From contig CANQNK010000005.1 in NCBI GenBank assembly GCA_947625195.1, forward strand, positions 1-64,000: a stretch of DNA of 64,000 nucleotides, in the 5' to 3' direction. This DNA is from an uncultured Clostridia bacterium. Its GTDB lineage: Bacteria > Bacillota > Clostridia > Oscillospirales > Ruminococcaceae. This document shows positions 8,135 to 17,430 of the stretch, in pieces; the first letter of the stretch is position 1, and the number at the start of each line of letters is the position of its first letter. The notes beneath the pieces were generated by a model. That model was not told where the DNA came from and searched no databases. It worked only from the letters and a program-made list of their open reading frames with translations. The position numbers and the translations under genes are program-made.

Positions 8135-9337
8135 CTAAAACTTAAGCTTTTTAATTCTCTCACAAGCTTCCTTTGTTCTTTCGCTGTCGCCAAACGCCGT
8201 TAGTCTGAACCAGCCCTCGCCGTTTTTGCCAAAGCCCGCTCCGGGAGTTCCGACAACATTTGCCTCGGTGAGAAGCTTGTCAAAGAAATCCCAACTCTTC
8301 ATTCCGTTCGGACACTTGAGCCAGATATACGGTGAGTTTTTTCCGCCCGTGTACTTTATTCCCATTTCGTCCATAGCTGCGGCAATTACCTTTGCATTTT
8401 CCTGATAATACTTTATGTTCTCTCTGGTCTGCTCGTATCCCTCTTTTGTGAATACTGCCGCAGCTGCACACTGAACAGGATAGGAAACTCCGTTAAATTT
8501 TGAGCCCTCTCTCCTTCCCCAAAGCTGAGATATTGAAACTACTGTGCCGTCGCTTGCGATGACTGTAAGCTCATCGGGGATCACTGTATAACCGCATCTC
8601 ATTCCAGTAAAGCCGGCAGTTTTAGAAAGCGAACACATTTCTATTGCGCACCTTCTTGCGCCCTCAACGGCAAATATGCTTCTCGGTATTGCCTCATCAG
8701 TTATAAATGCCTCATACGCGGCGTCGTATATGATAATAGCGTTGTTCTTTATTGCGTAGTCTATCCACGCCTTCAGCTGATCCTTTGTGTACGCAGAGCC
8801 GGTAGGATTGTTAGGCGAACACAGATATATAAGGTCTGCGTGAACGCTTTCATCAGGCATTGCCGCAAAGCCGTTTTCTTCGTTTGAATCGGCATAAATG
8901 ACCTTTCTTCCGCTCATAAGGTTAGTGTCAACATAAACCGGATATGCGGGGTCTGTGATAAGTACGATATTGTCATCGCCAAAAATATCAACTATATTTC
9001 CGCAGTCCGACTTTGCGCCGTCGTTTATTCTTATCTCGCTAGGCTTTACTGTTACGCCAAAGCCCTCGTAATATCCGGAAACAGCCTCCTTTAAAAAATC
9101 ATATCCTGTTCCGCTGTCCTCATAACCTTTAAAGGTCTCCTTAACGCCCATTTCATCAGCGCCCTTTTTCATAGCGTCGACCACGCACTTTGCAATAGGC
9201 AAAGTCACATCTCCGATGCCCATTCTAATAATATCGGCGTCCGGGTGAGCCTCTTTATACTCATTCACCTTTTTTGCAATATTGATAAAGAGATAGTTCT
9301 TTTCAAGCTTTAAGTAATTTTCGTTAATCGTTGCCAT
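8135..9337 (-). CDS. dapL: LL-diaminopimelate aminotransferase
   Basis: The 400-residue PLP enzyme converts tetrahydrodipicolinate and glutamate to LL-diaminopimelate, replacing the succinylase or acetylase branch of lysine and peptidoglycan precursor synthesis. The N-terminus INENYLKLEKNYLF and the motif SPNNPTG are typical, and the PLP lysine lies in CSLSKTAGFTGMRCG. It sits 22 bases downstream of a gene that ends in diaminopimelate epimerase, the next enzyme of the pathway, so the operon places two consecutive steps together. A GGAAG site supports the start at 9337. Confidence 0.95.
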   Translation of the reverse strand: MATINENYLKLEKNYLFINIAKKVNEYKEAHPDADIIRMGIGDVTLPIAKCVVDAMKKGADEMGVKETFKGYEDSGTGYDFLKEAVSGYYEGFGVTVKPSEIRINDGAKSDCGNIVDIFGDDNIVLITDPAYPVYVDTNLMSGRKVIYADSNEENGFAAMPDESVHADLIYLCSPNNPTGSAYTKDQLKAWIDYAIKNNAIIIYDAAYEAFITDEAIPRSIFAVEGARRCAIEMCSLSKTAGFTGMRCGYTVIPDELTVIASDGTVVSISQLWGRREGSKFNGVSYPVQCAAAAVFTKEGYEQTRENIKYYQENAKVIAAAMDEMGIKYTGGKNSPYIWLKCPNGMKSWDFFDKLLTEANVVGTPGAGFGKNGEGWFRLTAFGDSERTKEACERIKKLKF

Positions 9338-9359: not shown

Positions 9360-12300
9360 TCAGATAATAACTTCACCGTCAAATACGTTTACGGCATTTC
9401 CTGTCAGGAACACCTCTCCGTCTGAAGTGTAACGAACAGTCAGATCTCCTCCGATAAGCTTTACGGTAATATCCTCGTCTCTGCTGCAATAGCCGTTTTC
9501 ACAGGCCGCTACAACGCTTGCACACGCACCTGTTCCGCAAGCCCATGTCTCTCCGCTGCCTCTCTCCCATACCCTCATCTTGAGCGTATTCTTATCAACT
9601 ATCTGAATAAATTCTGCATTTACTCTCTCCGGGAACATAGGGTGATTTTCAAACTCAGGCCCGTATTTTTCAAGCTCAAAGGTGTCTACATTTTTAACAA
9701 ACGCAATGCAGTGTGGATTGCCCATAGAAACACAGGTTATATCCCAATCCTTATCAGCGACCTTAACGGTGCGATTCACAATCTTTTCTCCCTCAAGACT
9801 TACGGGAATCTGCTTAGGATCAAGTATCGCCTTGCCCATATCGACCTTTGCACCTACGATTTCTCCGTAATGGCGCATAAGTTCAACCTTTATGATTCCC
9901 GACAGCGTTTCAATAGTAAAATTATCCTTATCCACAAGTCCTTTGTCTCTCATAAACTTTGCGACGCACCTTATTCCGTTGCCGCACATTTTTCCTTCGC
10001 TGCCGTCAAGGTTAAACATTCTCATTTTTCCGTCTGCGACCTTTGAACGGCATATAAGTATCACGCCGTCGCCGCCGATCCCGAAGTGACGGTCTGAAAG
10101 ACGTATTGACAATCCCTCGGGATTATCTATCCTCTGGTCAAAGCAGTTAAAGTAAATGTAATCGTTTCCGCATCCGTGCATTTTTGAAAATTTGACCTTC
10201 TGCTTTTGCGTTCTCATGTCGTTAATATCAACAAGCTCAGTAGACTGTTCCGAATATTTACTCTTTATGCTTGAAACGATAGCGTTTGCCGTATCAATAG
10301 ACGTTAGACAAGGAATGTTCCTGTCCACTGTTTTTCTTCTTATCTTGACCGAGTCTCTTGAAGGCATTCTTCCCTTTGAAGAGGTGGAGATAACATAATG
10401 TATCTCTCCGCTTTCAATGAGCTTTAATGTGTTGTTTTCTCCCTCGTGGATCTTATCCACTACCTGTGCTGAAATCCCGTTTTCCTCAAGAGTTTTTGCC
10501 GTTCCTCTTGTAGCATATATCTTAAAGCCAAGATCGGCAAACTTCTTTGCGACCTCTGAAATTTCCGGCTTATCGGAATCTCTTACGGTTATAAAGACTC
10601 CGCCGTTTTTCTCAAGGGTGTAGCCCGCCGCGATAAGCCCCTTGTAAAGCGCTTCTTCAAGAGTATTTGCAAGCGCCAGAACCTCTCCCGTAGACTTCAT
10701 CTCAGGGCCTAAGTGGTTGTCTACGTCTATAAGCTTTTCAAACGAGAACACAGGAACCTTTACCGCCATATACGGAGAATGCGGATAAAGACCTGTTCCG
10801 TAGCCCATTGATTTGAGTTTTTCTCCAAGCATTGCGCGTGTTGCAAGCTCTACCATAGGAACACCCGTTACCTTTGATATATACGGAATGGTTCTTGACG
10901 AGCGGGGGTTTACCTCAATTACGTAAAGCTCTCCGTGATAGATAAGGTACTGGATATTAACAAGTCCCTTTGTTTTTAAGGAGACCGCCAGATTCTTTGA
11001 GCACTCCACGATCCTCTCTACCATTTCGTCCGGCAGATTCCATGCGGGATAAACTGCTATTGAGTCTCCCGAATGTATTCCCGCTCTCTCAACGTGTTCC
11101 ATAATTCCCGGAATGAGGATATCCTCACCGTCGCATATAGCATCAACCTCAAGCTCAGGTCCGGAAAGATATTTGTCAATAAGTATCGGATTTTCTATCT
11201 CCTGCGCAAGGATTATAGCCATATATTCTTTTATATCGTCATCGTTAAAAGCGATTATCATATTCTGACCGCCCAAAACGTATGACGGACGCATCAATAC
11301 AGGGTAGTGCAATCTGTTTGCGACCTCAAGCGCCTCTTCGGTCGTCATAACCGTAAAGCCCTGCGGACGCTTTATGCCGTGAAGCTCCAAAAGCTCATCA
11401 AAGCGCTCTCTGTCCTCAGCGGCGTCTATGCTGTCAGGCGGAGTTCCTAAAATGTTCACTCCGTTTGCCGCCATATGCTTTGTAAGCTTGATGGCCGTTT
11501 GTCCGCCGAAAGCCACAACCACTCCGTACGGTTTTTCGACATTTATTATGTTCATAACGTCTTCGTTGGTAAGCGGCTCAAAGTAAAGTCTATCCGCAGT
11601 ATCAAAGTCGGTCGAAACCGTTTCAGGGTTGTTGTTTACTATCACAACATCAAATCCCTGACGCTTGAGCGCCCAGACGCACTGAACGGAAGCATAGTCA
11701 AACTCTATTCCCTGGCCTATTCTTATAGGACCTGAGCCGAAAACGATAACCGTTTTGTTATCAGAACCTAACGTTTTTATATGATCGCTTGCCTCGTCCT
11801 CATCATCAAAGGTAGAGTAGAAATAAGGCGTCTGTGCTGCAAACTCCGCAGCACAGGTGTCAACCATTTTAAACGACGCATTTTTCGGCTTTTCTATCAC
11901 ACATCCCGAAAGATTTCTGATTACCTTGTCAAGATAACCTATTTTCTTTGCCTTAAGGTACAGTTCTTCGGTCAAAACTCCCGCCCGAAGTTCCTTCTCA
12001 ACGTCTATTATCTTTAAAAGCTTATTCAGAAACCAAGTGTCTATCTTTGTTACATCGTGTATATATTCAGGCGAAACTCCCCTGCGCAGATTTTCAAATA
12101 CTACGAAAAGCCTTTCGTCGTTGCAGCTTCCAAGCCTTTCCTTTACCTTTTCATCTGAAAGTGCCATAAGGGGCTCACTCAACAGGCTGTCGTGTCCTAT
12201 CTCTGCTCCTCTTACCGCTTTCATAACAGCCTGCTCAAAGGTAGTGCCTATTGCCATAACCTCTCCCGTGGCCTTCATCTGAGTTCCTAGCGTTCTCTTT

Positions 12301-13409
12301 GCGTAAACGAACTTGTCAAACGGCCACTTTGGAAGCTTTACTACAACATAGTCAAGCGCCGGCTCAAAGCAGGCATACGTCTTTCCTGTTACCGCATTTT
12401 TTATTTCATCAAGCGTATAGCCTATCGCGATCTTTGCCGCAACCTTTGCTATAGGATAACCGGTGGCCTTTGAAGCAAGCGCCGAAGAACGCGAAACTCT
12501 CGGGTTTACCTCAATTACCGCGTACTCAAAGCTGTCCGGGTTGAGCGCAAACTGACAGTTGCAGCCGCCCTCGACCTCAAGAGCGTCAATTATTTTAAGC
12601 GCCGCCGAACGCAGCATCTGATATTCCTTATCTGCAAGTGTTACCGTAGGCGCTATAACTATCGAATCTCCCGTATGTACTCCCACCGGGTCAAAGTTCT
12701 CCATTGAGCAGACAGTGATAACGTTTCCCTTGCTGTCTCTCATCACCTCAAACTCTATTTCCTTCCAGCCCGCAATGCACTTTTCCACAAGCACCTGCGT
12801 TATAGGGGAAAGATACAGTCCGTTTCTGGTAATGTCTCTCAGCTCCGTCTCATTGTTTACTATACCTCCGCCCGTTCCGCCGAGTGTGAATGCCGGGCGT
12901 ATTATTAACGGATAGCCTATGCCCTCTTCATTTGCAAACGCTACGGCGTCCTCAACAGTATTTACAACCTTTGATGGAATGCACGGCTGTCCTATAGACT
13001 CCATAGTATCCTTAAACATCTGTCTGTCTTCTGCCTTGTCTATTGTTTCTGGTCTTGCACCTAAAAGCTTTACGTTGTACTGATCCAAAAAGCCTTCCTT
13101 TGCAAGCTCCATAGACAGGGTAAGTCCCGTTTGTCCTCCCAGTGTGGAGAGCAGACTGTCAGGGCGCTCTTTTTTGATGATCCTCTTTACGGTTTCAAGC
13201 GTCAGCGGCTCTATGTAAATTTTATCAGCCATTGCCTTATCCGTCATAATAGTTGCCGGGTTTGAGTTTATAAGTATTACCTCAAGTCCCTCTTCCTTCA
13301 GCGCACGGCAAGCCTGAGTTCCCGCATAGTCAAACTCTGCCGCCTGCCCTATAACTATCGGTCCGGAACCGATCACAAGCACTCTTTTAAGGTCTTTATT
13401 TAAAGGCAT
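9360..13409 (-). CDS. carB-dapF: Carbamoyl phosphate synthase large subunit fused to diaminopimelate epimerase
   Basis: This 1349-residue open frame joins two full-length enzymes. Residues 1-1064 are CarB: two ATP-grasp halves, the first starting at KDLKRVLVIGSGPIVIGQA and the second near NKTVIVFGSGPIRIGQG, then the MGS-like allosteric domain ending near ELVDIND. From residue 1065 (ATG at 10217) a complete 285-residue DapF follows, with both catalytic cysteines in MCGNGIRC (about residue 1142) and WACGTGACAS (about residue 1291). No stop, frameshift or convincing ribosome site lies at the junction. CarB makes carbamoyl phosphate for arginine and pyrimidines with CarA; DapF converts LL- to meso-diaminopimelate, the product of neighbouring dapL being its substrate. 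The start at 13409 is chosen for the AAGGAAA site; an in-frame TTG lies 21 bases upstream. An internal start at 10217 giving free DapF remains possible. Confidence 0.93.
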   Translation of the reverse strand: MPLNKDLKRVLVIGSGPIVIGQAAEFDYAGTQACRALKEEGLEVILINSNPATIMTDKAMADKIYIEPLTLETVKRIIKKERPDSLLSTLGGQTGLTLSMELAKEGFLDQYNVKLLGARPETIDKAEDRQMFKDTMESIGQPCIPSKVVNTVEDAVAFANEEGIGYPLIIRPAFTLGGTGGGIVNNETELRDITRNGLYLSPITQVLVEKCIAGWKEIEFEVMRDSKGNVITVCSMENFDPVGVHTGDSIVIAPTVTLADKEYQMLRSAALKIIDALEVEGGCNCQFALNPDSFEYAVIEVNPRVSRSSALASKATGYPIAKVAAKIAIGYTLDEIKNAVTGKTYACFEPALDYVVVKLPKWPFDKFVYAKRTLGTQMKATGEVMAIGTTFEQAVMKAVRGAEIGHDSLLSEPLMALSDEKVKERLGSCNDERLFVVFENLRRGVSPEYIHDVTKIDTWFLNKLLKIIDVEKELRAGVLTEELYLKAKKIGYLDKVIRNLSGCVIEKPKNASFKMVDTCAAEFAAQTPYFYSTFDDEDEASDHIKTLGSDNKTVIVFGSGPIRIGQGIEFDYASVQCVWALKRQGFDVVIVNNNPETVSTDFDTADRLYFEPLTNEDVMNIINVEKPYGVVVAFGGQTAIKLTKHMAANGVNILGTPPDSIDAAEDRERFDELLELHGIKRPQGFTVMTTEEALEVANRLHYPVLMRPSYVLGGQNMIIAFNDDDIKEYMAIILAQEIENPILIDKYLSGPELEVDAICDGEDILIPGIMEHVERAGIHSGDSIAVYPAWNLPDEMVERIVECSKNLAVSLKTKGLVNIQYLIYHGELYVIEVNPRSSRTIPYISKVTGVPMVELATRAMLGEKLKSMGYGTGLYPHSPYMAVKVPVFSFEKLIDVDNHLGPEMKSTGEVLALANTLEEALYKGLIAAGYTLEKNGGVFITVRDSDKPEISEVAKKFADLGFKIYATRGTAKTLEENGISAQVVDKIHEGENNTLKLIESGEIHYVISTSSKGRMPSRDSVKIRRKTVDRNIPCLTSIDTANAIVSSIKSKYSEQSTELVDINDMRTQKQKVKFSKMHGCGNDYIYFNCFDQRIDNPEGLSIRLSDRHFGIGGDGVILICRSKVADGKMRMFNLDGSEGKMCGNGIRCVAKFMRDKGLVDKDNFTIETLSGIIKVELMRHYGEIVGAKVDMGKAILDPKQIPVSLEGEKIVNRTVKVADKDWDITCVSMGNPHCIAFVKNVDTFELEKYGPEFENHPMFPERVNAEFIQIVDKNTLKMRVWERGSGETWACGTGACASVVAACENGYCSRDEDITVKLIGGDLTVRYTSDGEVFLTGNAVNVFDGEVII

Positions 13410-13446: not shown

Positions 13447-14523
13447 TTACTTATTTGCGTCTATCATATCCATAAATTTATCAAACAGAAATCCAGTATC
13501 AAGCGGCCCCCCACAAGCCTCAGGGTGAAACTGCACCGAAAACGCCGGCATATATTCGTATTCTACCCCCTCGCAGGTTCCGTCGTTTGCGTTAAAAAAG
13601 CTCTCGGTCGCACCGTCAGGAAGCGTATCGGAAACTACCGCATAGCCGTGATTCTGGCTGGTTATATAAACCCTTCCCGTATCCTTATATGACGCCGGCT
13701 GGTTAGCTCCTCTGTGTCCGTACTTAAGCTTTTCTGTCTTTGCCCCCTGAGAAAGCGCTAACAGCTGATGACCAAGACAAATCCCGAATATAGGAATGTT
13801 AAAACCGCACATAATTTTAAGTTCATTTATTATCTCGGTGTTTTCAGCGGGATCTCCCGGTCCGTTTGAAAGCATTATACCGTCCGGAGAAAGCTCTTTT
13901 ACTCTGCTTGCAGGCGTTAAAGCCGGAAGCACCGTTACCTCGCACCCTCTTTTCTGAAGCTCACGGCAGATATTCGCCTTAGCGCCGTAATCCATAAGGC
14001 ACACTTTGCGCTTTATCTCCCCCTCGGCAGGCATGACCGTTTCCTCCTTGCAGGTAGTGTTCTCAACTGCGTTTAATATACGATAGTTTTTTAGCTCGGT
14101 CATACCGAAGTCTGTCGTTCCCTCCATAACTATTTTTCCGTTCATAACTCCTGATTCACGCACGATCTTCGTGAGGGCTCTTGTGTCTATTCCGTATAGT
14201 CCGACAATTCCCGACTGCTTTAAAAAAGTGTCAAGATCTCCCTCACAACGAAAGTTTGAAGGTTCCTGACACCAATCTCTTACAATATATCCTTTTACAT
14301 ACGGACGAGCGCTTTCAAAATCGGAAGGAATAACTCCGTAATTTCCGATAAGAGGAAATGTCTGAACAACGATCTGCCCGTAATAACTCGGGTCTGTCAA
14401 GGTCTCCAAATAACCGGTCATTGCTGTTGTGAAAACAATTTCTCCAACAGTTTCTCCGGTTTTTCCAAAGCTTTTACCCTCGAAAATAGTCCCGTTTTCA
14501 AGTATCAAGTACGCTTTCTGCAC
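13447..14523 (-). CDS. carA: Carbamoyl phosphate synthase small subunit
   Basis: The 358-residue glutamine amidotransferase subunit supplies ammonia to CarB. The N-terminal half has the CarA pattern (FTTAMTGYLETLTDPSY), and the class I amidotransferase domain has the nucleophile motif FGICLGHQLLALSQGAK and the downstream FHPEACGGP. The start is a GTG at 14523 behind AGGGG. It is the first gene of carA / carB-dapF / dapL, with a 37-base gap to the fusion gene and its own promoter upstream. Confidence 0.96.
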   Translation of the reverse strand: MQKAYLILENGTIFEGKSFGKTGETVGEIVFTTAMTGYLETLTDPSYYGQIVVQTFPLIGNYGVIPSDFESARPYVKGYIVRDWCQEPSNFRCEGDLDTFLKQSGIVGLYGIDTRALTKIVRESGVMNGKIVMEGTTDFGMTELKNYRILNAVENTTCKEETVMPAEGEIKRKVCLMDYGAKANICRELQKRGCEVTVLPALTPASRVKELSPDGIMLSNGPGDPAENTEIINELKIMCGFNIPIFGICLGHQLLALSQGAKTEKLKYGHRGANQPASYKDTGRVYITSQNHGYAVVSDTLPDGATESFFNANDGTCEGVEYEYMPAFSVQFHPEACGGPLDTGFLFDKFMDMIDANK

Positions 14524-14618: not shown

Positions 14619-15188
14619 TTAATTTTCATACGTCTTAATAATCTGTGCTGCAATCTGATATTTTGTAACTCTTTTGTCCATTGCCTGCTTCTCTATATAT
14701 CTGTGCGCCTGAGCCTCGCTGTAGCTTAAATACTGCATAAGCGCAAACTTTGCTCTGTTTATAACCCTCATTTCCTCTATCTTTTTCTGAAGCTTGTTAT
14801 TTTCCTGCTTAAGGCCTAAAAGCCGATTTCTTGTGGCGCTTATACATCTGAGCGACTGCGCAAATAGCAGTCTGTTTACAGGTTTTGAAACGCTTAACGC
14901 ACCTATCGACTCAAGCTTTGCGCTTACATCATCAAAGTGATCCGCTTTTACGATCATAAGGCAGCTTGAAAGGGAATCTCGGACTACTATTTCGGCAAGC
15001 TCATAGCCGAATTCATCGGAAAGAGGTGCGTTAATAAGGACAAGATCGTATTCGTTTTTTGCAAGCGCACGTTTCGCGTCCGTGCCACTTTTTGACATTG
15101 ATACGCTCATATGCCCAAGCTCTCTTAGCAAAGGAACCAGAGCATCCGCCGCCTTTTCATTGCTGGATACTATCAAAACGCTTTCCAA
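14619..15188 (-). CDS. ANTAR-domain response regulator (RNA-binding antiterminator)
   Basis: The 189-residue product has a receiver-like N-terminal half (about 1-120) and, after a coiled-coil linker around LKQENNKLQKKIEEM, a C-terminal ANTAR domain with the conserved alanine- and aromatic-rich helices (INRAKFALMQYLSYSEAQA, then HRYIEKQAMD). ANTAR proteins bind paired RNA hairpins with hexanucleotide loops and prevent formation of terminators. Here the gene is the last in the glutamate synthase-glutamine synthetase operon, so nitrogen genes are the likely targets. The receiver may be degenerate: the usual Asp could not be assigned with certainty. The start is TTG at 15188, fixed by a strong GGGAGG site. 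Confidence 0.9.
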   Translation of the reverse strand: MESVLIVSSNEKAADALVPLLRELGHMSVSMSKSGTDAKRALAKNEYDLVLINAPLSDEFGYELAEIVVRDSLSSCLMIVKADHFDDVSAKLESIGALSVSKPVNRLLFAQSLRCISATRNRLLGLKQENNKLQKKIEEMRVINRAKFALMQYLSYSEAQAHRYIEKQAMDKRVTKYQIAAQIIKTYEN

Positions 15189-15285
15189 TTCGCACCACCT
15201 CCCCGATATAAATTATTTTTGCTTTCTAATTGTCCCTGATCAAACGCTTTCGTCAAAGACATAAAGACATCTCATACAAGTAAAA

Positions 15286-16602
15286 TCAGAGCGTATAAAA
15301 ATAATTCTCCGTTTCAAAAATCTCTTTATCCTTAGCTTCGTCATACTTTTGCTGCTGTTCAGAGCCTATATCAACATACGCGTCAATCACCCTTTTGTCA
15401 AGATAGCTGCCTATAAATCTGCTTTCGGCCGCAAGCTTTCCCGCTTGATATAAATCCTCAGGGAATTTATCAAGCTTAACTAAGCTATGATTTCCCGACT
15501 TCTGAATATCCACGTTAACAGGGCGCATAAGCTCCTCATTGTTTTCAATTCCCTCCACGCACGCGTAAATTATAAGCGCAAGCACAATGTACGGATTGCA
15601 GGCGCAGTCAGGTGAGCGAAGAACTATTTTTGCGGATCCGTCTGCCGATACGGGGACACGTATAAGCTGAGCCAGATTTTTAGTGCTCCACGAAATATGC
15701 TCAGGCACTTTGAACGCTCCGAAGCGCTTATAGCTGTTGACAGTCGGGTTTGCAAAAACGGTCATATCCTTTATTCTGTTTAGAATTCCGGCGATCATGT
15801 TTGCCTGAAAACGGTTTTTCTCAGGCGCAAAGCTTTTAAAAATATTGCTGCGGTTTTTATATGCTTTTATACTTATGTGAAGTCCGCTGCCCTGTTTGTC
15901 GTCAAACGGTTTTGGCATAAACGTAGCATACAAGCCGTTTGTATCTGAAATGTTTTTTACAACCGACTTGAAGGTTATAAAGTTGTCCGCCGCTTTAAGC
16001 GGAGGCGAAAACTGAAAGTCTATCTCATTGTGTCCTGGTCCGCCCTCATGTCGTGATGAGTCGGGAGAAAAATCCATCTGCTCTAACGCAAGGCATATTT
16101 CGCGGCGTATGTTTTCTCCTCTGTCACGAGGAGCCGCATCCATGTATCCCGCATTATCATGAGGAATTTTCGTAGGGTTGCCCTCGTCATCGCACTTGAA
16201 CAGATAGAATTCGCAGGAGGTTTGAAACTCAAAGGTGATTCCTTTCTTTGCGGCGTAATCCACCGCGGTTTTTAATATATCCCGTGAGCAGGCGGCGAAT
16301 TTGCTTTTATCTGCATTTTTTATGTCGCAGATAAGTCTTGCAACGCCCCCGTGGTGAGGCCTCCACGGCAGGATCGAAAGCGTGGAAGCGTCCGGCAGCA
16401 AAAGAAGATCGTCCTGAGCGCACAAAAGCCCCCTCTGATAAGAAGCGTCTATCGAAAAGCCCTCTGCAAACGCTTTTGCAAGCTCTGAGCTGTTTAACGA
16501 GATATTTCTCTGAAAGCCGAAAATATCCGAAAACTGAAGCTTTACAAACTTAACGTCGTTTTCCTCAACGTACTGAAGCACATCCGTTTCTGTATAAATC
16601 AT
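15286..16602 (-). CDS. glnA: Type I glutamine synthetase family protein
   Basis: The 438-residue enzyme has class I motifs: the beta-grasp N-terminus (VKFVKLQFSDIFG), the catalytic GPGHNEIDFQF, FMPKPFDDKQGSGLH, NSYKRFGAFKVPE and the C-terminal LRSPDCACNPY. It joins glutamate and ammonia to form glutamine. The C-terminus does not show the usual adenylylation-site region (NLYDLPPE), so regulation by adenylylation is unlikely. It sits between the glutamate synthase pieces and the ANTAR gene, preceded by its own terminator-like hairpin. Since a type III enzyme is also present nearby, this copy may be specialised. A GGAGG site supports the start. Confidence 0.92.
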   Translation of the reverse strand: MIYTETDVLQYVEENDVKFVKLQFSDIFGFQRNISLNSSELAKAFAEGFSIDASYQRGLLCAQDDLLLLPDASTLSILPWRPHHGGVARLICDIKNADKSKFAACSRDILKTAVDYAAKKGITFEFQTSCEFYLFKCDDEGNPTKIPHDNAGYMDAAPRDRGENIRREICLALEQMDFSPDSSRHEGGPGHNEIDFQFSPPLKAADNFITFKSVVKNISDTNGLYATFMPKPFDDKQGSGLHISIKAYKNRSNIFKSFAPEKNRFQANMIAGILNRIKDMTVFANPTVNSYKRFGAFKVPEHISWSTKNLAQLIRVPVSADGSAKIVLRSPDCACNPYIVLALIIYACVEGIENNEELMRPVNVDIQKSGNHSLVKLDKFPEDLYQAGKLAAESRFIGSYLDKRVIDAYVDIGSEQQQKYDEAKDKEIFETENYFYTL

Positions 16603-16707: not shown

Positions 16708-17430
16708 TTAATTCGCCGTGTAAAGCCGTTTGTAAGGATTTTTTGTGTCAGGAGTCAAAACATAGAATTTTGAGTTCAACACATCCTGCTTTTTCACCTT
16801 GAACTTTCTGCAAAATGAAGTGATATAACCGCTAATCTGTGCCAAATCCTCGGCCGTCGCCTCCTCTGCCTTAACCTGCTTTGGAAGGTCATACGGCAGT
16901 TTATCGGTTCGTAAGTATATCCTTCCGCCGTGCATCCCCGTTCCGCAGAAATTGCCTACAATGCTTTCTCCTTCATAACCAAGTCCTAAAACGATTATAT
17001 ATCCGCCTGCCTGGTATTCGCCAAGAAAGCTTCCTGCTTTTCCTCCGATAATGAGCGCAGGGGTTTTATCCATATAGCTTTTCATATGTATTCCCGCACG
17101 GTAACCGGCGCTGTCGCGAACATAGATTGCTCCGCCTCTCATCGCGTATCCCGTGGCGTCTCCTGAGGAACCGTAAATCGTTATTACGCCGTCGTTCATC
17201 GTATCTCCCGTTGCGTCCTGAGCGTTTCCGTTAACGGTTATGTTACATCCGTCAAGATAAGCGCCAAGCGCATTTCCCGGGGTGCCGTTTATCGTTACAT
17301 CCGTGCCTTTTCTGCCTGCGGCGATATACCTCTGGCCGAGGCAGTTAACTATCGTCACCGGCTCCTTTTTGCAAGCCTTTATCTTTTTGTTAAGCAACTG
17401 AAAATGCATTTCTCCCGCTGATATCTTCAT
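16708..17430 (-). CDS. Glutamate synthase GXGXG (alpha-subunit C-terminal) domain protein
   Basis: The 240-residue protein corresponds to the right-handed beta-helix domain found at the C-terminus of bacterial GltB. Repeating turns with GNALGAYLDGCNITVNGNAQ and GDATGYAMRGG show the GXGXG pattern. In split (archaeal-type) glutamate synthase this domain is a separate structural subunit. It is the fifth glutamate synthase gene of the operon, 15 bases after the FAD-dependent oxidoreductase gene, and GGAG precedes the ATG. Confidence 0.93.
   Translation of the reverse strand: MKISAGEMHFQLLNKKIKACKKEPVTIVNCLGQRYIAAGRKGTDVTINGTPGNALGAYLDGCNITVNGNAQDATGDTMNDGVITIYGSSGDATGYAMRGGAIYVRDSAGYRAGIHMKSYMDKTPALIIGGKAGSFLGEYQAGGYIIVLGLGYEGESIVGNFCGTGMHGGRIYLRTDKLPYDLPKQVKAEEATAEDLAQISGYITSFCRKFKVKKQDVLNSKFYVLTPDTKNPYKRLYTAN

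Follow-up and report, generated by a model that had tools for sequence, protein, structure and literature searches.

A conserved fusion of carbamoyl phosphate synthase large subunit and diaminopimelate epimerase in Clostridia, with a putatively regulatory epimerase half

The fused gene and its surroundings

The stretch of DNA analyzed here (the window: positions 1 to 64,000 of contig CANQNK010000005.1, assembly GCA_947625195.1) stems from an uncultured Clostridia bacterium of the Ruminococcaceae and carries a gene in which the large subunit of carbamoyl phosphate synthase (CPS; CarB) is joined to diaminopimelate (DAP) epimerase (DapF). Translation of the minus-strand frame from 13409 to 9360 gave 1349 codons and a stop codon without interruption. 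With the ATG at 13409 as start and the stop at 9362-9360, the product comprises 1349 amino acids, or 1356 from an upstream TTG. Its CarB half matched TIGR01369 over residues 4-1046 (NCBIfam; 1450.8 bits, cut-off 1027) and showed the full domain order of a full-length CarB. Its DapF half matched the equivalog family TIGR00652 over its full length (residues 1073-1347; 294.5 bits, cut-off 114.65), with equivalents of both thiols of the catalytic pair, Cys73 and Cys217. With a score of 109.6 bits against NF038284, the family of bifunctional DapF/glutamate racemases (cut-off 350), the protein fell outside that family. A preliminary description of the sequence had proposed that a complete CarB and a complete DapF occupy one frame at these coordinates, with both catalytic cysteines and with neither a stop codon nor an added linker at the joint. 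Translation, together with Pfam and NCBIfam domain limits, confirmed this description and placed the cysteines at residues 1142 and 1291 (Table 1).

Table 1. Features of the fused gene and its neighbors in the window.
Feature	Coordinates	Strand	Basis
Fused gene: CarB residues 1-1068, then DapF residues 1069-1349	9360..13409	-	Single open frame
CarB part: two CPSase ATP-grasp halves, oligomerisation domain, MGS allosteric domain	10206..13409	-	Pfam/NCBIfam
MGS-like allosteric domain, residues 950-1036	10302..10562	-	Pfam limits
Joint ELVDINDMRTQKQ: final residues of CarB, DapF immediately after	10200..10238	-	
DapF part, complete; usual residue at all ten examined ligand-contact positions	9363..10205	-	Pfam/NCBIfam, alignment
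Cys73-equivalent codon (residue 1142, the first catalytic cysteine); many fused relatives no longer have this cysteine	9984..9986	-	
Codon of second catalytic cysteine, residue 1291 (Cys217 equivalent)	9537..9539	-	
carA, CPS small subunit, directly upstream of fused gene	13447..14523	-	TIGR01368, 446.2 bits
dapL, LL-diaminopimelate aminotransferase, makes the epimerase substrate; downstream	8135..9337	-	TIGR03542, 511.7 bits
ANTAR-domain protein resembling response regulators, encoded upstream of carA; several relatives have it too	14619..15188	-	

The fused protein was the only CarB and the only DapF found in the genome of the window, whose completeness is given as 99.98%, and no meso-DAP dehydrogenase (Ddh) was found in that genome. 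The genome also encodes dapB, a LysA-like frame that scored slightly below its cut-off (282.5 versus 297.9 bits), and a MurE with a DNPR motif, which we take to mark the DAP-adding type. These observations indicated that the window protein should perform both reactions, and the sequence evidence argues strongly for a working CPS large subunit that would also be a working DAP epimerase.

The glutaminase subunit gene carA adjoins the fused gene in the window and lay upstream in 38 of 40 relative loci that were fetched with their flanks; none was seen at L081 or at L094, the latter at a contig end. The downstream neighbor is dapL, as the preliminary description had it, and its start is preceded by a Shine-Dalgarno-like stretch. 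Ahead of carA, positions 14619-16602 hold a glutamine synthetase-like gene together with the ANTAR response regulator; a similar pair occurred near carA in L063, L064, L078, L082, L083, L086, and L095. A stand-alone GXGXG-domain protein adjoining a flavin oxidoreductase-like gene was observed at 16708-17430.

Distribution, origin and joint of the fusion

Judged by frame length, 32 of the 61 genomes in a set of relatives carried the fusion. These include 14 of the 15 from the genus of the window, its own genome counted; the remaining one, G009, starts at a contig end. The fusion was further detected in at least 48 of 197 genomes sampled from the order, in at least 41 of 293 from the class (four of these 41 with frames below 1200 residues), and, at E-values up to 1e-120, in 15 of 249 from the phylum; the samples overlap (G000 and G054, for instance, occur in several). 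Two of the carriers, G672 and G695, are single-contig genomes, and both halves shared one frame in all 40 fused loci fetched with flanks. A scan of named genomes with an MGS-DapF alignment returned at least 594 pattern matches, of which the best 80 all spanned the joint. Isolates were represented among these 80 loci (Ruminococcus sp. FC2018, Neglectibacter sp. X58, and Gemmiger sp. An120), as were a few metagenome-assembled genomes labelled as other phyla (Treponema, Synergistaceae), with labels taken as given. A separate table of 80 fused genomes, drawn from 99 first listed and omitting 19 mostly near kin, covers 68 genera and, by count from the table, 35 families; in seven of these 80 the fused frame is truncated at a contig end, divided, or interrupted by a stop (G028, G164, G242, G272, G342, G397, and G501). 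The search for CarB-DapF proteins in related genomes that the preliminary description had proposed thus found them in genus, order, class, and phylum. The fusion is an old, conserved architecture and no oddity of the window genome. That description had also known of no published CarB-DapF protein. None was found in the open-licence literature by title and start of abstract, with subscription papers and protein database entries not covered, but the fusion is not confined to this genome.

Some loci departed from the common arrangement. In L077 (3032-7753; G217), CarB carries a mid-protein insertion of some 215 residues of imperfect MNPSLTSSGSGEEG-like repeats. In L243 (964-5013; G028), an in-frame TAG precedes the second cysteine of the fused DapF, possibly reflecting a decaying copy or an error; this genome has another DapF. 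A standalone second dapF directly follows the fused gene at L078 (2400-7518), L126 (1565-6607), and L131 (2-3823). On G342:C31, CarB appears to lie in two frames of 741 and 644 residues, the latter carrying DapF.

Phylogenies were built by a quick method with SH-aLRT (a likelihood-ratio branch test) support alone. A DapF tree with masked cysteine columns, for which 156 of 191 sequences were retained at <85% identity, required a single change for the fused state (support 82). In a CarB tree of 70 sequences (40 chosen fused, 30 unfused), all fused sequences formed one clade with support 100. A second CarB tree combined 31 chosen fused with 39 unfused sequences, more of the latter coming from the neighborhood of the fused clade and eleven far ones being left out, and here one of the 39 (L293 2441-5650, from G038) nested within the fused clade. 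Its sequence stops at the joint, and a search of the G038 genome gave no DapF; this probably represents a secondary, natural loss of the DapF domain. Unfused CarB and standalone DapF sequences were mainly best-scoring matches, so that the numbers of secondary losses and of degraded standalone copies may be too low. Within this sampling, the trees of both halves fit a single fusion event.

Separate genes linking CPS and DAP synthesis were also observed in a distant CarB group, in the orders carA-carB-dapF-dapL (L244/L279, G269) and carA-carB-dapL (L275), and in G459 (L245) a carB fragment abuts dapF. In both G269 and G459, dapF follows carB immediately and in frame, separated from it by a stop codon. 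These loci were considered as the ancestral operon and rejected, since their CarB belongs to the distant group (50% and 44% identity; the G459 fragment was in no tree). Adjacency of carB and dapF therefore occurs, but the ancestor is not represented.

At the joint, which in the window protein reads STELVDINDMRTQKQKVKFSKMHGCGNDY, 35 residues separated the DTA motif of the MGS domain from the first DapF strand in 171 of 175 scorable proteins (180 unique), and an ELVDIN stretch was strongly conserved among fused proteins. This near-invariant length and conserved sequence argue against a free linker, and the joint is here called rigid. Several unfused sister CarBs end in VDITKI, whereas fused ones read VDINxMR and then continue, as read-through of a stop codon into a following dapF would give. 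An internal start yielding a separate DapF was considered and rejected, though not for every species. The window has an ATG at 10217-10215 (codon 1065) with no Shine-Dalgarno-like stretch ahead of it. Of 178 unique fused genes, 163 had a start codon close to the joint, but only 20 had such a stretch ahead of one, as compared with 29 of 35 scorable CarB starts. Among 146 sequences scored at the codon equivalent to Met1065, 112 had Met, 32 had Leu, and 2 had Lys. An AlphaFold model of MGS plus DapF had a mean pLDDT (per-residue confidence) of 90 and a pTM (predicted template-modelling score) of 0.70; in a fold search, its DapF half matched the solved DapFs 2otn and 9mro with TM (template-modelling) scores of 0.84 and 0.93 by target length.

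Cysteine loss, ligand pocket and effector domain

The catalytic set of DapF consists of Cys73, His159, Glu208, and Cys217 (PMC3581254). Replacement of both cysteines of Escherichia coli DapF by Ala abolished epimerisation (PMC4227774), and either single cysteine change nearly abolished activity of the related racemase PddB (PMC8225329). Among 119 fused sequences of <85% identity, 64 had lost Cys73 (C 55, A 38, G 14, S 11, F 1) and 116 kept Cys217, while both cysteines were found in all 37 standalone sequences, which were mainly best-scoring matches, a choice that favors well-kept ones. In the table of 80 fused genomes, 25 had both cysteines, 54 had lost Cys73 (replaced by Ala in 41, Gly in 6, and Ser in 5), and one had lost Cys217 alone, so that the thiol pair is not a general feature of fused relatives. 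Explaining the loss of Cys73 on the DapF tree takes 19 changes, or no fewer than five if only well-supported branches count. On the CarB-part tree, cysteine loss required 9 changes (at least six), counting G041 as a loss, and one clade of 40 was uniformly changed.

Other sources of meso-DAP were scored in the same 80 genomes as DapF and Ddh matches above curated cut-offs. Of the genomes with both cysteines, six had a second DapF, ten more had Ddh only, and nine had neither. The corresponding numbers for the 55 genomes with at least one changed cysteine were 42, 12, and 1 (G041), and Ddh was present in all 12 Cys73-lost genomes that had no second DapF. A Fisher test, which ignores kinship, associated cysteine loss with any alternative source (p 7e-5) and with a second DapF (p 1.6e-5). 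The ability to make DAP was considered as a condition for retention of the domain and rejected; of the 79 fused genomes examined for it, 77 had dapB, as did the domain-less G038, and this gene therefore does not discriminate.

Ligand contacts were taken from an Anabaena DapF complex (PMC12039745) and carried over by alignment, with Haemophilus influenzae numbers. In the 54 Cys73-lost domains, Asn64 was kept in all; Asn157 and Gly218 in 53 each; Asn75, Asn190, Glu208, and Thr219 in 52 each; Gly74 and Arg209 in 50 each; and Asn11 in 44. Cys217 was kept in 50. The ten contacts had a mean entropy of 0.25 in this set, against 1.34 for the whole domain, and none of 20,000 random ten-site sets was as low. 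In 39 of the 54, Asn replaced the Ser of the motif ERGSGET, which is Ser in most intact forms. Evolutionary rates were estimated by a simple counting method, with sequence pairs classed by a motif that agreed with the alignment in 150 of 151 cases. The median ratio of nonsynonymous to synonymous substitution rates (dN/dS) was 0.09 for Cys73-lost pairs (16 unsaturated of 26, highest 0.30) and 0.046 for intact pairs (23 unsaturated of 33); the median dN ratio of DapF to CarB was 1.81 and 1.63, respectively. On these sequence comparisons, purifying selection on the fused Cys73-lost DapF domain is clear, although it may have relaxed somewhat. The relatives thereby display the sequence traits of a pseudoenzyme, with a catalytic residue lost and fold and pocket under purifying selection.

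The MGS domain was compared by alignment to E. coli CarB. In the window protein, nucleotide-site positions K947 (just outside the Pfam limits of the domain), T967, T970, K986, S1008, S1010, and R1014 were of the type usual in unfused Clostridia, and the 25 intact genomes likewise had residues usual in Clostridia. In E. coli numbering, used hereafter, Lys954, Thr1017, and Arg1020 presumably have nucleotide-site roles. Thr977 and Lys993 have been named as crucial for UMP (uridine monophosphate; PMC6245113). Within the clade of 40, Lys954 was kept in 6, Lys993 in 9, Arg1020 in 3, and Arg1030 in none (His in 39). Thr974 was kept in 40, Thr977 in 39, and the ornithine residue Thr1042 in 40. Unfused CarBs (26 sequences) kept Lys954 in 26, Lys993 in 19, Arg1020 in 24, and Arg1030 in 26. 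Judging from these substitutions, the clade of 40 relatives has probably lost ordinary nucleotide control of CPS.

Proposed role and comparison with known systems

Loss of Cys73 with retention of the domain, the pocket, and the distance to the MGS domain suggests that the fused DapF has a second, non-catalytic task in CPS. The reading that we prefer, and to which we give an even chance of being right, is that of a bifunctional enzyme in which the epimerase half turned, on several occasions, into a regulatory domain of CPS that no longer catalyses and putatively binds DAP. The sequences show that a single read-through event joined carB to the dapF behind it in an ancestor of many Clostridia and that the fused protein has persisted since. 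Where both cysteines remain, as in the window, the protein very probably works as CPS large subunit and DAP epimerase. As a pattern, the sequences also show that Cys73 was lost several times, nearly always in the presence of another meso-DAP source (a separate DapF or Ddh), and that the domain itself, the greater part of its ligand pocket, and the precise spacing from the MGS domain were retained through these losses.

The preliminary description had suggested that fusion to the allosteric MGS end of CarB could couple cell-wall and lysine precursor supply to nucleotide and arginine status. This putative coupling gains indirect support from the recurrent loss of one catalytic cysteine in a retained domain, the almost constant joint length, and the altered MGS effector site of one large clade. 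UMP feeds the synthesis of UDP-N-acetylmuramic acid (UDP-MurNAc), the precursor to which MurE adds DAP; both DAP and pyrimidines draw on aspartate. The fused DapF may bind DAP, close, and alter CPS via the rigid joint to the MGS effector domain, by which carbamoyl phosphate (for UMP, hence UDP-MurNAc, and arginine) would be balanced against DAP. More tentatively, and as a proposal that we hold to be possible but somewhat improbable, the fused DapF could be a DAP sensor that lets the status of cell-wall precursors set pyrimidine and arginine flux and that, in the large clade, replaces the altered nucleotide site of the MGS domain.

Several observations weigh against a regulatory DapF domain. 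Perhaps six to nine independent events underlie the pattern of cysteine loss, and an independent-pairs test on the CarB-part tree, with 6 supported pairs of which few were informative, was not significant: for any alternative source an average of 0.8 pairs went the same way and 0.4 the other way, and for a standalone DapF alone 1.2 and 1.6, respectively. Absences of alternative sources were scored in draft genomes, four of the 80 being <90% complete (G015, G036, G047, and G060), and G041, with its changed Cys217 position, had no alternative DAP source that we could find. The ten contact sites, with a mean entropy of 0.25 in Cys73-lost domains, were all invariant in the 25 intact domains (0.00), and dN/dS was about twice as high in Cys73-lost as in intact pairs; this looser pocket and higher ratio make some relaxation possible. 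G038 has probably dispensed with the domain. In 15 cysteine-losing genomes outside the clade of 40 the MGS site was mostly ordinary, with one or two exceptions per site, so that cysteine loss and MGS change are not always coupled. Residues 112-120 of the AlphaFold model (model numbering), at the joint, had pLDDT values below 50, and packing of DapF on MGS cannot be claimed from this model.

The main rival is a scaffold, in which DapF dimerises and stabilises or orders the CPS oligomer and its ligand is irrelevant. Known DapFs are dimers, and purifying selection and a near-invariant joint length are equally expected of a structural part. Structure alone, however, does not predict repeated change at one catalytic residue, and Cys73-lost domains retain their ligand contacts, although such sites rank among the most conserved of the fold anyway. 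We consider a scaffold a serious but doubtful possibility. Alternatively, the single-cysteine domain might be active in another reaction, such as elimination or dehydration of an amino acid. The proline-racemase fold has single-cysteine members with other reactions, and trans-3-hydroxyproline dehydratases were among the fold-search matches. Retention of Cys217 and the recurrent Ser-to-Asn change near it would agree with such a switch, but Cys73 was mostly replaced by Ala or Gly, and by Ser in five of 54, and hence a new acid-base group is seldom supplied. As it also leaves the MGS changes unexplained, changed chemistry appears unlikely.

A neutral fusion, in which loss of a stop codon between neighbors was fixed by chance and the domain is a passenger that gives equal expression, would have been an easy step, as the in-frame abutment of carB and dapF in G269 and G459 illustrates, and the domain was probably lost in G038. 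We nevertheless regard it as quite improbable, given the fixed joint length, a dN/dS near 0.09, retention of the domain in many lineages after loss of Cys73, and the finding of just one of 39 sampled unfused CarBs inside the fused clade. That the Cys73-lost domain pairs with a separate DapF and brings it to CPS would be in keeping with the separate DapF of 42 out of 55 cysteine-losing genomes but could not be general, as 13 of the 55 (12 of them with Ddh) showed none, and is very improbable. A sequencing or assembly error in the window genome, including the lost stop codon by which the preliminary description could have been overturned, has no supporting point that we found and hardly deserves credence, since the same frame recurs in independent assemblies, including those on single contigs.

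The fusion constitutes a conserved link, not found described in the open-licence literature, between two essential pathways of gut bacteria, nucleotide and arginine synthesis on the one hand and supply of cell-wall DAP on the other. Its natural intact, Cys73-lost, and domain-less forms offer a series for studying the transition from enzyme to regulatory domain. For annotation, a match above the DapF cut-off was obtained in all 80 fused genomes, yet 54 of these have no Cys73 in the fused domain; Cys73-lost fused DapFs should not count as epimerases in metabolic models.

Compared with CarB proteins (TIGR01369; E. coli structures 1a9x, 1bxr, and 1ce8), the window protein shares the full domain order and the usual MGS effector positions but bears a 281-residue C-terminal DapF; among its relatives, the clade of 40 has an altered nucleotide site. 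With DapF (TIGR00652; 2otn, 9mro) it shares the complete fold, both cysteines, and the ligand contacts, but DapF here is fused, and Cys73 is missing in 54 of the 80 listed fused genomes. A DapF-family relative with a second function is the DapF/glutamate racemase of NF038284, below whose cut-off the window protein scored. CPS is joined to other enzymes in CAD and other multienzyme fusions; CAD unites consecutive steps of one pathway, whereas the fusion partner of CarB here belongs to the lysine and cell-wall pathway. A precedent for regulation of another enzyme by DapF without its cysteines is the E. coli DapF-RppH system (complex 6d13), in which DapF retains binding to RppH, and stimulation of it, after replacement of both cysteines (PMC4227774). 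There, the two are separate proteins, the partner is a different one, and the part of the study drawn on here describes no ligand dependence (PMC4227774).

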